Below, piece after piece: positions 39,069-45,282 of a stretch of 64,000 bases of DNA. The notes below the pieces were generated by a model that saw only the letters and a list, made by a program, of their open reading frames with translations, had not been told where the DNA came from and ran no database searches. Both the position numbers and the translations under genes were made by a program. Numbering within the stretch: position 1 is the first letter of the stretch; each line of letters opens with the position of its first letter. Origin of the DNA: Gemmatimonadales bacterium (GTDB lineage Bacteria; Gemmatimonadota; Glassbacteria; GWA2-58-10); the NCBI GenBank assembly GCA_024278175.1, contig JAJRTS010000003.1, positions 1-64,000 of the forward strand. Reading direction: 5' to 3'.

Positions 39069-40748
39069 TTATTTGCCTGGTTTCGCCTGGTTGACCGATA
39101 GGTTAAGCTGTTTTCCGCCGGGCAGTTCCAGCTCAATTCCATCGATCAGCTTGCTGCCGGTCAGAGTTCTGCTCTCTTTGCCCACGCCGCCGTCCAGCCG
39201 GTAGAGCTCCAGCGGCCGGGCTGTAAACCACTCGGCGAACGCGTTGATTCTCGGGTAGTTGGCGCTCATCCCCAGCCACTGGGAGTAACGCTGCCTGTCG
39301 AAGAACAGCTTACCGCGCCAGGGCTTCTCGCTGCTCAGGTAGAGTTCGAGACTTTCGCTGTCACCGCCGAAGCGGGCGGCGATCCGCAGGTCCTCGCGCC
39401 AGGGCGCAAGGCGGCAGCCGGCACTTTTCCAGAACGCGTACATCAGGGCCGTGCGCGCGAAATTCCCATCACCCCACCAGCCCTCGATTACCCCGTCATC
39501 GCGCTGCATGGCCAGCATCCTGCCTATTTCATGGTCGACCCATTCGCCGGCGCCCGGCTCCGGCAGATAGCTCAGCAGCAGCAGCGCGCCCTCCACCGCG
39601 TCGGCGATCCCGTCTTGCGACTGCCCGCTTTCGCCGCGCGGCTCCCAGCGGTAATCCTTGAATTGGTTCAGGTTCCCCAGCGCCCGCCGCACAGGGACCA
39701 GGTAGGACTCATCCCCCGTGGCCATCGCCATCGTGATCCAGGCGTAATAGTCATAGCCCCAGTTATCGGAAACGGCGCCGCGCGTTAACTCGCCCGTGGC
39801 GGCGTCGACCTCGTTGTAGAAAAATCCCAGGCTGTCGGTGCCGATCTCAACCGAGCGCCGCAGCATTCTGTCGATCGCCGGAAAATACGTATCCGCGCGG
39901 CGGCTGCCCAACTCCTTTTCGATAGCGTAAAGCAGAGTCAGCCCGCTGATAATTTCGCAGCCGTGATCGCGCAGCTTCAAGCTGCCGTCGCCCGTGTGGC
40001 TGCTGAAATCCCAGAAATGGGCCGGGACCCCGTAATTGCCCGGCAGAACTTCAAAACAGTAGGCGTCGCCTATCCTGCGCGAGAACTCCAGGTATTCCTC
40101 CCGCCCGGTCATCCAGTACAGGCGACACAGTACCTGGAGCATCTCCCCGTTCACTTCGGCATCGTTCGAGGGCAGCTTGCCCCACGCAGTCTCCAACGGA
40201 GCAGCGCTGATTATCCCCTCCGCAAGCGCGGCCATCCGCTGTGACCAGACGCCGGGGCCGAGGATTTCCAGCATCGGCACCAGACCGTCCTTGGCGTACT
40301 CCGAGGCCCCGAATATCAGGCGATCCAGTTGCATGGGCACTTGCCTGCCGGCGGCCAAATCGAATGTGCCGGGCAGGCCGAATCGCTGGATCGTATGTTT
40401 CAGTTCCCCCACAAGCGAGTTTTCCAGCAGCGGACGGAACAGCTCCCGGCGGGTAAAAAACGCGGAGATCAGCATGAACGGGAAATTATCGGCGGCGGAG
40501 TTGGCGGTGGTCCAGAGCGGGCTGTCGCCCAGCCGCTGCGGCAGCAGGCCGGTGGCCGGGTCAACCTGGGGCAGCCAGCCCTCCAGGAACTTCCGGCTGT
40601 GGTTGAACGCCTGTGCCGCCAACTGCGCATCATCAGCCAAAGCATCCTGACCGGGCGCACAATAGAGCGGTTTTGAATCATAAAACAATATTGCAACACA
40701 TAAAGCAATACATGATACGAATGAACATATCTTATTTACAATAAGCAC
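39069..40748 (-). CDS. Exported six-hairpin (alpha/alpha-barrel) protein, possible glycosidase
   Basis: The 559 residues start with a signal peptide (to about residue 31) and continue as a helix-rich chain with repeated aromatic and acidic patches (DNFPFMLISAFFTRREL, DNWGYDYYAWITMAMATGD, DGIADAVEGALLLLSYL), the pattern of six-hairpin glycosidase and lyase folds. I see no decisive family signature, so substrate and catalysis are unknown. The start is GTG with GGAG eight bases upstream. It is divergent from the heparinase-like gene across about 224 bp, which probably holds both promoters, and the two may be regulated together. Confidence 0.65.
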   Translation of the reverse strand: MLIVNKICSFVSCIALCVAILFYDSKPLYCAPGQDALADDAQLAAQAFNHSRKFLEGWLPQVDPATGLLPQRLGDSPLWTTANSAADNFPFMLISAFFTRRELFRPLLENSLVGELKHTIQRFGLPGTFDLAAGRQVPMQLDRLIFGASEYAKDGLVPMLEILGPGVWSQRMAALAEGIISAAPLETAWGKLPSNDAEVNGEMLQVLCRLYWMTGREEYLEFSRRIGDAYCFEVLPGNYGVPAHFWDFSSHTGDGSLKLRDHGCEIISGLTLLYAIEKELGSRRADTYFPAIDRMLRRSVEIGTDSLGFFYNEVDAATGELTRGAVSDNWGYDYYAWITMAMATGDESYLVPVRRALGNLNQFKDYRWEPRGESGQSQDGIADAVEGALLLLSYLPEPGAGEWVDHEIGRMLAMQRDDGVIEGWWGDGNFARTALMYAFWKSAGCRLAPWREDLRIAARFGGDSESLELYLSSEKPWRGKLFFDRQRYSQWLGMSANYPRINAFAEWFTARPLELYRLDGGVGKESRTLTGSKLIDGIELELPGGKQLNLSVNQAKPGK

Positions 40749-40972
40749 TTAACGTCTCCTTCCAAAGGTAAGCGCACGGGCGCGGCAACAATTCATCGCA
40801 GATGACAGCTAATTTTCTTCTAATAATTGTGCCGGGAGGCCAGGCGCGCATTGTACCGTATCGCCATACCACCGTTGCTTGTGCCCTCCGGTATTATATA
40901 TTAAATTTTTCTCAAGCGCAAAGCTTAACACTCCCTTGCTTCCGACACGCCTTCCCGTGCGAGGACATACCG

Positions 40973-43324
40973 GTGCGTTACTTTTACAGAATTCTTTATT
41001 CAGGCCTGCTGTTGCTGCTGCCGTTGGTCTGTTCCTGCCAGTTGGATGGCGGTCCCGGCGGACTGCAGAGCGAAGCCTACAGCAGACTTAACTCTCTCTA
41101 TAAACTCCATCCCCGCCTGCTTATTCCCGCCGGCGAGGACAGTCTGCTTCGCGAGCGGCTGGGAAGCTCCCACCGCATGCTCTGGAAGCGCTACCTTCAG
41201 GACCTGCCCGGCAAGCTTGAGCGTGGGCGTTCATTCACGGCTGACCCGGACCGTGGCGAGGGTAACCTGGCCGCAGATCTGGCGTTCGCCTGGCGCGCCA
41301 CCGGCGAGGACAGTTTACTCGACGCCGCGCGCAGTTACCTGCTGAAACTGGCGAGCCTGGAAACCTGGGACCCGGATTACGATCTTCTGCAGGGCCATCT
41401 GCTGCTGGGAACAGCGCTTGCCTACGACTGGCTCTACCATGAACTCAATCGCTCCCAGCGCGCGCTTGTGACCGCCAAACTGGGTGACGAGGCCGAGGCG
41501 CAGTACCGGCAGATCACCCGCAACAGGGCCTGGTATCGCACCCAGTACCTGCAGAACCACGCCCATGTAAACTATACCGGGATGGCTTACGCCGCCGTGG
41601 CGCTCTACGGCGAGGACGCCAGGGCGCAGAAATGGCTGGCGGCCTGTGAGGAGTTTTTCCCCCGCGTGTTCGAGTTAAGCCCATCCGACGGCGGCTCCAT
41701 AGAGGGACTGAGCTACGGCAACTATGCCATGGAGTTCTGCCTGCTCTATGCCGAGCTGGCCCGCGCTGCGCTGGGCAAGGACTACTATTCCAGTAAATGG
41801 ATCGAAAATTATCCGCGCTACGTTCTGCACAGCACGCTTCCCGTTCAGACAGAGAAAGAGTGGGCGATGACGTTCGGCGACAGCCCTCGCCACGGCAACT
41901 CTCACGGGCCGGAGCAGATGCTGTATCTGATCGCCTCCCGGCTCAACGACCCCAGCGCGCAGTGGCTGGCCAATCATCTGATCGCCCTGAACGATTCGGG
42001 CCTGGCCAGCGCATCCTGGTGGGCGCTGCTCTGGTATGACCCGAACGTGGGAGAATCCTCGCCGGCCTCGTTCGCACCCCTGCACCGTTTTAACGAAATC
42101 GGGCAGGTGGTGACGCGCACCGCCTGGCAGGATACGGCAGCCACCATGATCGCCCTTAAGAGCGGCGCGTTCATGGGCGATTCCAACGCGGAGGGCGCCG
42201 TGTTCGATCTGGGAGCGGCCCACGGGCACCCGGATGCAGGCAGCTTTCAGCTTTACTCTCATGGGCGTTTTCTGCTGATCGATCCAGGTTACACCTCTTT
42301 CAAGAGTACGGCCAACCACAACACCCTGCTGGTGAAGGGCCGTGGCCAACTGGGCGAGAACGAACCCTGGTTCGCCGCCGCGGAGGCGATTCAATACGGC
42401 CACCGGCCGCGGGTGCTGGAAACGTTGTCCACCACTGCTTACGACTACATCCTTGCCGATATCGCCCCCGCGTACCATCCCGCGCTCAATCTGAGCAAGG
42501 CGCTGCGCCACCTGCTGTTCGTCAAACCGGACATTCTGCTGATAGTCGATGAGGCGATCCTGGGAGACACGGGTGTGCTCTACAGTTGGCCCGCCGATAC
42601 GCTGGAACTCTCCGGCCTGCTGCGCCTGGAGGACGGTTACGTGGTTGGCAGCCGCGGCAGCGCCGGTGCCACATTCGCCGGCGTGGGGGGCGACTATACG
42701 GTCGGGGTAAGCTATCTCGACAACTTCCCCGGTAGCGGCTCGTACAGCCTGCTGATCAACGGGGAGAAAATATCCGCTTGGAAAAACCATGCCGAGGCAA
42801 CCGACACGCACCTGAAACTGATAGAGTCCGTGCGGCTTGATCCCGGCTGCAAAATCAGCGTGGCAGCGGACCCGATGGGCCGGGAAGCCAGGATTGTCAA
42901 AATCACCGCCCACAGCAGCCGTGTCCGCCAGCCGCGCAGCGTAACCTGGCTGGCTCATTTCGACCCGTCGGTTAAGCTGGAGCGCAAGTACACCTGGATC
43001 GAAGCGGACGCCGGCGAGTTGCTAGTCGATATCCACCCCCTGGCTCCCGAACATCGCTCCCACGACTGGGGCATCCACACGGTCAAGGGTGGGCGACAGA
43101 TCAAGCAGACCATGCGCCTGGAGATAACACCGGCGTTCACCGACTCGGCCACCACGATGATGAACCTGCTCTTTATCCGCCCCAAGGGCGGCAGGCCGCT
43201 GCAGTGGCTGCGCGCGGGCATTACCGGCAGGACCGCCACGGTGCGCTACTACCGCGACCAGCGTCTGCATACGATCACCTTGAATCTCGACACCAGGGAA
43301 ATCGGTATAGAGCCGCAGGATTGA
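40973..43324 (+). CDS. Heparinase II/III-family lipoprotein (polysaccharide lyase)
   Basis: A 783-residue protein. A GTG start at 40973 with GAGGA upstream gives a lipoprotein-like signal (LLLLPLVCSC); the track's 57 extra residues are rejected. An N-terminal alpha/alpha-barrel (about 60-360) is followed by the heparinase II/III beta domain. Candidate catalytic or metal residues lie in NHAHVNYTG near 195, HGNSHGPEQ near 305, AHGHPDAGSFQLYSHGRFLL near 415 and NHNTLLVKG near 445. Family enzymes cleave uronic-acid-containing glycans (heparin, alginate, ulvan-type) by elimination; the substrate here is unknown. It is followed after 23 bp by the sugar kinase-uridylyltransferase, a strong sign of joint function. 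Confidence 0.85.
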   Translation: MRYFYRILYSGLLLLLPLVCSCQLDGGPGGLQSEAYSRLNSLYKLHPRLLIPAGEDSLLRERLGSSHRMLWKRYLQDLPGKLERGRSFTADPDRGEGNLAADLAFAWRATGEDSLLDAARSYLLKLASLETWDPDYDLLQGHLLLGTALAYDWLYHELNRSQRALVTAKLGDEAEAQYRQITRNRAWYRTQYLQNHAHVNYTGMAYAAVALYGEDARAQKWLAACEEFFPRVFELSPSDGGSIEGLSYGNYAMEFCLLYAELARAALGKDYYSSKWIENYPRYVLHSTLPVQTEKEWAMTFGDSPRHGNSHGPEQMLYLIASRLNDPSAQWLANHLIALNDSGLASASWWALLWYDPNVGESSPASFAPLHRFNEIGQVVTRTAWQDTAATMIALKSGAFMGDSNAEGAVFDLGAAHGHPDAGSFQLYSHGRFLLIDPGYTSFKSTANHNTLLVKGRGQLGENEPWFAAAEAIQYGHRPRVLETLSTTAYDYILADIAPAYHPALNLSKALRHLLFVKPDILLIVDEAILGDTGVLYSWPADTLELSGLLRLEDGYVVGSRGSAGATFAGVGGDYTVGVSYLDNFPGSGSYSLLINGEKISAWKNHAEATDTHLKLIESVRLDPGCKISVAADPMGREARIVKITAHSSRVRQPRSVTWLAHFDPSVKLERKYTWIEADAGELLVDIHPLAPEHRSHDWGIHTVKGGRQIKQTMRLEITPAFTDSATTMMNLLFIRPKGGRPLQWLRAGITGRTATVRYYRDQRLHTITLNLDTREIGIEPQD

Positions 43325-43347: not shown

Positions 43348-45282
43348 ATGGCGGCGATGGAATTATTCGTACCCGGCAGGATCTGTATGTTCGGCGAGCA
43401 CTCGGACTGGGCGGGCGGCTACCGCAGGATCAATTCCGAAATCGAAAAGGGTTACACGATAATCGCCGGGACCAATCAGGGGATCTACGCCCGCATACGC
43501 CCCCACCCCGGCAAGCTGGTACTGACATCGTGCCTGCCCGACGGGCGCAGGATCGGGCCGTACGAGATACCGATGACCCGCGAGGCGCTGCTGGCCGAGG
43601 CCGAAAAAGGCGGGTTTTTCAGCTACATCGCGGGTGTGGCGTTCCAGGTGATGACGTTCTATCCGGTCAAGGGACTGGAGATAGACAACTACCGCACGGA
43701 CATGCCGGTCAAGAAGGGACTGAGCAGTTCGGCGGCGGTTTGCGTGCTCACCGCCAGGGCGTTTAACAAAATCTACGATCTGCGGATGACTGTCCGCGGC
43801 GAGATGGAGTTCGCCTACATGGGCGAAGTGATCACTCCCAGCCGCTGCGGCAGGATGGACCAGGGCTGCGCCTACGGCAACCGCCCCACGATGATGACGT
43901 TCGACCGTGACCTGCTGACCGTGGACGAGCTGAACGTGCCGGAAACGCTCCACATGGTGATTGTCGACCTCCGGGCGGAAAAAGATACCAAGGAAATTCT
44001 GGCCAGCCTGAACCACTCCTACCCGTTCGCCGAGAACGAGCTGGACCAGGGCGTGCAGCATTACCTGGGCAAGGCCAACAAGATGCTGGTCCACGAGGCG
44101 GTCAAAGCGCTAAAAGCGGGCGATGCACAAGCTCTCGGCGCACTGATGACGCGGGCGCAGAAACTGTTCGACCAGTACCTGACCCCGGCCTGCCCGGAAC
44201 AACTGACAGCCCCGATCCTTCACGAGGCCCTCCGGTTCGGGGATATCAGCAAATTGATCTGGGGCGGCAAGGGTGTTGGCAGCCAGGGTGATGGGGCCGC
44301 GCAGTTCGTGGCCAGAGGCCCTGAGGAGCAGGCCGAAATAATCAGGCTGTTCGAGGAAGTAAAGGCAATGAAGGCGCTCAAGCTCGATATTCCGGCCACG
44401 CGAAGGGCGCGCAAGGTGCTGATCCCGGCCGCGGGTTTCGGTACGCGGCTGTTCCCGGCAACCAAGGCTATCCGCAAGGAGTTGTTTCCGGTTATCGGCC
44501 GCGACGGGGTGGCCCGCCCGGCGATTCTGATTCTGGTGGAAGAGGCGTTCGACTCTGGGGCGAGCTCGGTTTGTATCGTTGTGCGGAAAGAGGACGTGGA
44601 GATGTTCGAGAGCTTTTTCAACGCTCCGCTGGAGATTGGTCATTTCAACAAGCTCAGCCGCCAATCGAAAGCATACCAGAACCGGCTGATGGAACTTGGC
44701 TCAAAAACAGCCATTATCGCTCAGGACCACCAGGAAGGCCTGGGCCACGCGGTCCACGTGGCCGGCGACTGGGTAAACGGCGAGCCGTTTCTGCTGATGC
44801 TCGGCGATCACATCTACCGCTCCAACTCCGATCTCCCCTGCGCCCGCCAGTTGCTGGACGTCTACGAAAAATACCAGAAGAACGTAGTGGGCCTTCGCGT
44901 GACAAAAGAAAGCGAGATCGGCCGCTTCGGTACGGTGGCGGGCCTGTGGGAGCCGGGCGATGAGCGTCTGCTCAATGTGACCGGGATCGCCGAGAAACCC
45001 TCGGTGGACTACGCCCGCGCCAACCTGAGAGTGGACAACCTGGCCGACGACGAGTACCTGACCATATTCGGCCTCTACGTTCTCAGCCCATCGGTGCTGA
45101 ACATCCTCAGGGAACATATCACCGACAACCTGCGCCGCAAGGGCGAGTTCGACCTGACCGCCGCGCTGGACGTGATGCGGGCCGAGGAAGGTTTCCTGGG
45201 CTATGTGGTCGATGGCGACCGGTTCGACATCGGCGTGCCCCAGGCCTATCTGGAGAGCCTGTTGGAATATCCGGCCGGCTGA
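43348..45282 (+). CDS. Bifunctional GHMP sugar kinase / GalU-like UTP-sugar-1-phosphate uridylyltransferase
   Basis: The 644 residues join two complete enzymes. Residues 1-345 are a GHMP kinase: GRICMFGEHSDWAGGYR near 10, the ATP loop MPVKKGLSSSAA near 115 and WGGKGVGSQGDGAAQFV near 310. Residues 355-640 are a nucleotidyltransferase of the GalU type: LIPAAGFGTRLFPATKAIRKELFPV near 357, LLMLGDHIYRS near 490, TGIAEKPSVDYA near 547 and FDIGVPQAYLESL at the end. A free sugar would be phosphorylated at C1 and then converted to a UDP-sugar. The known fucokinase/GDP-fucose pyrophosphorylase fusion has the opposite order. The start is ATG 43348 or 43357. It follows the lyase gene by 23 bp. Confidence 0.93.
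   Translation: MAAMELFVPGRICMFGEHSDWAGGYRRINSEIEKGYTIIAGTNQGIYARIRPHPGKLVLTSCLPDGRRIGPYEIPMTREALLAEAEKGGFFSYIAGVAFQVMTFYPVKGLEIDNYRTDMPVKKGLSSSAAVCVLTARAFNKIYDLRMTVRGEMEFAYMGEVITPSRCGRMDQGCAYGNRPTMMTFDRDLLTVDELNVPETLHMVIVDLRAEKDTKEILASLNHSYPFAENELDQGVQHYLGKANKMLVHEAVKALKAGDAQALGALMTRAQKLFDQYLTPACPEQLTAPILHEALRFGDISKLIWGGKGVGSQGDGAAQFVARGPEEQAEIIRLFEEVKAMKALKLDIPATRRARKVLIPAAGFGTRLFPATKAIRKELFPVIGRDGVARPAILILVEEAFDSGASSVCIVVRKEDVEMFESFFNAPLEIGHFNKLSRQSKAYQNRLMELGSKTAIIAQDHQEGLGHAVHVAGDWVNGEPFLLMLGDHIYRSNSDLPCARQLLDVYEKYQKNVVGLRVTKESEIGRFGTVAGLWEPGDERLLNVTGIAEKPSVDYARANLRVDNLADDEYLTIFGLYVLSPSVLNILREHITDNLRRKGEFDLTAALDVMRAEEGFLGYVVDGDRFDIGVPQAYLESLLEYPAG

Follow-up and report, generated by a model that had tools for sequence, protein, structure and literature searches.

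The nucleotide-heptose enzyme HldE is built as one chain, kinase first and nucleotidyltransferase second, with folds that are ribokinase-type and cytidylyltransferase-type, and it is ATP-dependent. FKP, the bifunctional GDP-fucose enzyme, has its pyrophosphorylase at the N-terminus and uses GTP (PMC12732313). The zebrafish protein DrGKUP is a glucuronokinase/putative UDP-glucuronate pyrophosphorylase with the transferase N-terminal and the kinase C-terminal; its kinase is glucuronate-specific, its transferase is of the bacterial type and UTP-dependent, and the bacterial and archaeal relatives of the transferase domain are reported to be single-domain proteins (PMC3938481).

The window analysed here, a stretch of 64,000 nucleotides from a Gemmatimonadales bacterium, encodes a protein in which a GHMP kinase (residues 1-346) is followed by a GalU-like nucleotidyltransferase (residues 353-641; Table 1). 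Like FKP, it combines a GHMP sugar-1-kinase and a sugar-nucleotide pyrophosphorylase in one chain, leading from free sugar to NDP-sugar, but in FKP the pyrophosphorylase comes first and uses GTP, whereas here the kinase comes first and the transferase is GalU-like. With GKUP it shares a GHMP kinase and a UTP-type transferase in one chain, but GKUP is eukaryotic and transferase-first while the fusion is bacterial and kinase-first. The pairing of GHMP kinase and NTP_transferase seen in FKP and GKUP is therefore present but their N-terminal pyrophosphorylase is not, and both domains belong to other kinase and transferase clades. A sequence-only reading of the window had rightly pointed to the reverse order and GTP-type transferase of FKP but had missed the animal UTP-type fusion, in which the transferase comes first (PMC3938481), and the membership of the protein in a widespread family. 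The kinase-first order is not described for FKP or GKUP, and a search of the open-access literature found no report of a kinase-first GHMP/GalU-type fusion; the enzyme family is widespread and uncharacterised.

The fusion is probably a bifunctional UDP-sugar salvage enzyme, for which we infer two steps, from free sugar to sugar-1-phosphate and from there to UDP-sugar. The N-terminal GHMP domain would phosphorylate a free sugar with ATP, presumably at the anomeric C1, and the C-terminal GalU-type domain would convert sugar-1-phosphate and UTP into UDP-sugar and pyrophosphate; UTP use is suggested by the kinship of this domain with UDP-glucose pyrophosphorylases, and the direction of the reaction is likewise presumed. 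A single protein that takes a free sugar all the way to the UDP-sugar would be useful for UDP-sugar production.

Table 1. Features of the fusion and its upstream neighbour (positions in the window).
Feature	Position	Strand	Basis or remark
Heparinase II/III-like gene, DUF4962 and Hepar_II_III_C	40802..43324	+	Pfam; upstream of the fusion; cluster c35
Fused kinase/nucleotidyltransferase ORF	43348..45282	+	644 aa; conserved start probably ATG 43357
Kinase domain, GHMP fold, galactokinase-like	43357..44391	+	Pfam GHMP_kinases_N; AlphaFold pLDDT 93.3; Foldseek galactokinases E 1.8e-18
Kinase motif 1 PGRICMFGEHSDW, Arg/Glu/His/Asp aligned with galactokinase motif PGRVNLIGEHTDY	43372..43410	+	Alignment with Pyrococcus galactokinase
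Kinase motif 2 GLSSSAA, phosphate-binding loop	43717..43737	+	Sequence, 31-sequence alignment
CGRMDQ with putative catalytic Asp	43846..43863	+	Asp invariant in 31 sequences
Kinase motif 3 GGKGVGSQGDG	44263..44295	+	Sequence, 31-sequence alignment
Nucleotidyltransferase domain, GalU-like	44401..45279	+	NTP_transferase 6.7e-18; TIGR01099 4.9e-46, below cut-off; Foldseek YngB 2.0e-21
Transferase signature GFGTRLFPATKA	44434..44469	+	Sequence, alignment A1
GD motif, presumed Mg2+ ligand Asp	44803..44808	+	Invariant in A1; aligned with Asp of H. pylori GalU
EKP motif, presumed sugar and phosphate contacts	44992..45000	+	Invariant in A1; aligned with GalU EKP

The reading frame (43348-45282, forward strand) runs through 644 codons without an internal stop, and both domains score above the Pfam gathering thresholds (GHMP_kinases_N at residues 99-177, 1.2e-9; NTP_transferase at residues 357-638, 6.7e-18). 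GLSSSAA lies at residues 124-130, GGKGVGSQGDG at 306-316 and GFGTRLFPATKA at 363-374, which bears out the earlier description of a sugar kinase joined to a UTP-type (GalU-like) transferase with complete signatures in both halves. Homologues of the fusion, which are 637-645 aa long, open with M-(K/E)-L-F-V-P-G-R or similar (alignment A1), so that translation probably starts at ATG 43357 and not at 43348. The 23-bp gap to the lyase-like gene, as first given, is correct from the start of the open reading frame but is probably 32 bp from the conserved ATG. The fusion is genuine rather than an assembly join or artefact, since the same junction and length recur in relatives, the total exceeding 100 genomes; a frameshift or assembly join between the halves, the danger identified at the outset, is ruled out by the continuous frame and the recurring junction.

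Surveys of whole genomes recovered the kinase-then-transferase fusion from several little-studied phyla. Full-length copies are present in 38 of 388 sampled genomes of Verrucomicrobiota (the L023 phylum), in 69 of the 85 of the L024 (‘Poribacteria’) phylum, which has three fragmentary copies in addition, and in 2 of 45 of the L026 (‘Goldiibacteriota’) phylum. Public records that carry it are named Candidatus Glassbacteria, Lentisphaerales, Kiritimatiellae, Poribacteria, Verrucomicrobia and Goldiibacteriota, with 56-59% identity in those other than the Glassbacteria one. In the window's own family (‘Glassbacteria’) three other genomes have a full-length copy (74-78% identity), a genome of the window's genus has the fusion split over two contigs, and another family member is without it. 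Both halves are also present in an Epulopiscium genome, each reaching a contig end. The sole full-length match in a phage collection, a 42.6% identical fusion, lies on an unverified human gut (faecal) contig, MT836394.1, from which recognisable phage genes are absent. This putative bifunctional sugar-activating enzyme is thus encoded by the majority of genomes in a single phylum that is largely uncultured, and by about a tenth of the sampled Verrucomicrobiota.

In galactokinases, the Arg, Glu, His and Asp residues of the motif PGRxxxxGEHxDx and of MDQ bind the sugar and take part in catalysis. The fused kinase retains both the GEHxD sugar motif and the catalytic MDQ Asp: in 31 sequences, including those of unfused Firmicutes kinases, the P, G, R, G, E, H, D and W of motif 1 are invariant, as are the Arg, Glu, His and both Asp residues of the galactokinase pattern. 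The residue before Met in CG(R/K)MDQ is Arg in at least 90% of the 31 sequences and Lys in two Firmicutes, whereas the galactokinases compared have Ile or Leu. A full-length AlphaFold model based on nine sequences was of low quality (pLDDT 59) and could be used for its transferase half only, so the kinase was modelled separately from 31 homologues (pLDDT 93.3, pTM 0.90). The closest Foldseek matches of this model are archaeal and lactococcal galactokinases (E 1.8e-18, TM 0.77), and a search of the PDB with the kinase sequence profile ranked galactokinase first (4.9e-16) and mevalonate kinase second, with no FKP chain among its matches. Fold, sugar motif and catalytic Asp all resemble those of the Pyrococcus and Lactococcus enzymes. 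These, however, are separate proteins, to which the fused kinase is about 20% identical, and it scores below the cut-offs of galactokinase TIGR00131 (38.4 against 226.65 bits) and of PF10509 (18.2 against 23.1 bits). In a tree with comparison kinases drawn from the same or related genomes, it forms its own clade (100/100) on a long branch, apart from galactokinase, arabinokinase-like, GNPTD and GGTD kinases.

The transferase half shares its fold and the motifs GxGTRxxPxTK, GD and EKP with GalU and YngB; GxGTRxxPxxK, GD and EKP are invariant in alignment A1. Its nearest solved structures are UDP-glucose pyrophosphorylases, with B. subtilis YngB found both by sequence (2.1e-30) and by Foldseek with the full-length model (2.0e-21). 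GalU and YngB are, however, separate proteins, and against the GalU equivalog (TIGR01099) the fused domain scores under half the cut-off (157.4 against 326.8 bits). In the tree it belongs to a clade (100/100) that includes neither GalU nor the transferases that accompany GNPTD kinases. This clade also holds unfused members encoded directly after a separate GHMP kinase gene with the motif MGGIADYSG (L176, L178, L179, L180 and L187), which we take to be the plant L-arabinokinase motif. These five loci, with an arabinokinase-like kinase and then a fused-clade transferase, are possible bacterial operons for UDP-arabinose or UDP-galactose salvage.

No neighbour gene is common to all phyla carrying the fusion, and most of its neighbourhoods are without sugar catabolism genes. 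In two loci (L115 and L134) it lies among polysaccharide genes, which include a nucleotide-sugar dehydrogenase, epimerases and CysD/CysN-like genes. The sequence-only reading had taken the neighbouring heparinase-like lyase as a pointer to the substrate, but this gene adjoins the fusion only in the window's family and is absent from fusion loci elsewhere; the lyase was therefore rejected as a general substrate clue, and its link to the fusion appears mostly incidental. Divergent to the lyase gene, on the reverse strand (39069-40748), is a gene for a 559-aa protein that has no Pfam match and is kept near the lyase in the window's family (cluster c63).

With the lyase link confined to one family, it is quite improbable that the enzyme turns glucuronate, or a different uronic acid freed by that lyase, into the UDP-uronic acid. 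Such chemistry is performed by animal GKUP, with the reverse domain order, and a UDP-glucuronate decarboxylase-like gene adjoins the fusion in some Kiritimatiellae-type loci (downstream in five, upstream in one), as the lyase-like gene does upstream in the window's family. However, the Glu retained in the kinase motif would be expected to face the C6 carboxylate, and in place of the GNPSD-type motif of plant glucuronokinases the fusion has GEHSDW. Four relatives in the window's family (L155:2973-4837, L156, L157 and L158) also encode a separate GalU-like transferase followed by a GNPTD GHMP kinase of 326-328 aa, and at L134:9837-11765 a transferase and a GNPTD/GNPSD GHMP kinase stand as a pair directly beside the fusion; such kinases are 326-331 aa overall. 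In the window's genome, a transferase ORF (L154) is directly followed by a GHMP kinase match. The GNPTD/GNPSD kinases presumably resemble plant glucuronokinase, and their operons, in the same order as the zebrafish GKUP fusion, look like its unfused bacterial counterpart. A separate transferase and glucuronokinase-like operon in related genomes thus argues against glucuronate as the substrate of the fusion. Among the sugars named in the sequence-only reading, uronic acids are disfavoured by this operon and by the Glu/His/Asp galactokinase motif, while galactose and arabinose, both listed there for assay, remain the leading candidates.

The Kiritimatiellae-type loci bear on a further reading. 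Upstream of the fusion they carry a GmhB-like HAD phosphatase in ten cases and a TIGR03790 protein in twelve, and the fusion could be a nucleotide-heptose enzyme like HldE or HddA/HddC, with the adjacent phosphatase acting between its two steps. HldE has the same functional order, kinase first and nucleotidyltransferase second in one chain, and a basic residue before the catalytic Asp occurs in one GGWTD kinase too. We nevertheless regard a heptose role as very improbable. Of 41 genomes tested, 38 contain a separate match to rfaE_dom_II, the heptose-1-phosphate adenylyltransferase, which in 19 of them exceeds the cut-off, indicating that a heptose pathway already exists there. The kinase profile ranks near galactokinase, with the putative sugar kinase 4usm last in the list, and the HddA-type GGTD motif and profile similarity are lacking: the fusion has GEHSDW and its clade is separate from the GGTD and GGWTD kinases. 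The phosphatase link itself may be clade synteny, since these loci also have gyrA/gyrB and efp-like genes in the same order; the common gyrA/gyrB order suggests that part of the neighbourhood conservation is of this kind.

For the UDP-sugar salvage enzyme favoured here, a galacto-configured neutral sugar, D-galactose or L-arabinose, is the likeliest substrate, a proposal that we put at about even. It is suggested by the galactokinase-like pocket residues, the pairing of sister transferases with arabinokinase-like kinases, and GH127 operons; the UDP-glucuronate decarboxylase gene adjoining the fusion in several Kiritimatiellae-type loci is a further clue. At three complete Firmicutes loci (L088, L089 and L090), a GH127 arabinofuranosidase gene (5e-105), an unfused GEHSDW kinase gene and then a gene for a different, RmlA-like transferase form a three-gene operon. 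The sugar of the fusion would reveal which free sugar the carrier bacteria recycle into glycans. Canonical galactokinase is present above the cut-off in 32 of 40 genomes tested, with three in the window's genome, and one fusion-bearing genome (G516) also encodes an arabinokinase-like protein (L168), so that both candidate sugars may already be served. It is possible, though doubtful, that the kinase-first fusion is a third, independently built kind of kinase/pyrophosphorylase acting on a sugar other than those served by the galactose, arabinose, glucuronate or heptose kinases that the same or related genomes already have; if so, a salvage route for another sugar waits to be found.

Were galactose the substrate, the fusion might replace GalT by activating galactose via galactose-1-phosphate and UTP where the Leloir transferase is lacking. 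None of the 26 genomes with the fusion that were tested in Verrucomicrobiota and the L024 phylum has a GalT (PF01087), while most of them have galactokinase, and across the L024 phylum GalT occurs in none of 72 fused-lineage genomes against 8 of 13 others (P=2.7e-8). This last contrast tracks deep clades, however, and is thus not independent evidence. In Verrucomicrobiota GalT is rare throughout (23 of 388 genomes), with no significant anti-association (1 observed against 2.4 expected, P=0.49), and both the window's family and the L026 phylum have GalT-like genes alongside the fusion. Replacement of GalT is therefore not established, and seems rather unlikely. Many Verrucomicrobiota and L024-phylum genomes have a canonical galactokinase and no recognisable GalT, which raises the question of the fate of their galactose-1-phosphate.

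Some unfused members of the kinase family branch at the base of the kinase tree (L093, L095 and a phage gene) and others from within the fused ones (Nostoc and L097), which shows that splitting as well as fusion has occurred; at L093 the same two genes are adjacent and unfused. Relatives that are unfused, or that have a different partner, offer a way to test how kinase/pyrophosphorylase fusions evolved. On Nostoc plasmids (L149-L152) the unfused kinase is 55-57% identical to that of the fusion; its neighbours are uninformative and sugar genes are absent nearby. On a Sphaerospermopsis plasmid the kinase ORF, which lies next to the transferase, is truncated at its N-terminus. Another unfused relative (49% identity), on the IMG/VR contig 3300045144_000265 (L147:7983-9143), adjoins a radical-SAM-like gene. 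It comes just after apparent phage portal and capsid genes and is followed by a 998-aa glycosyltransferase-like gene, and is possibly a phage-encoded sugar kinase.
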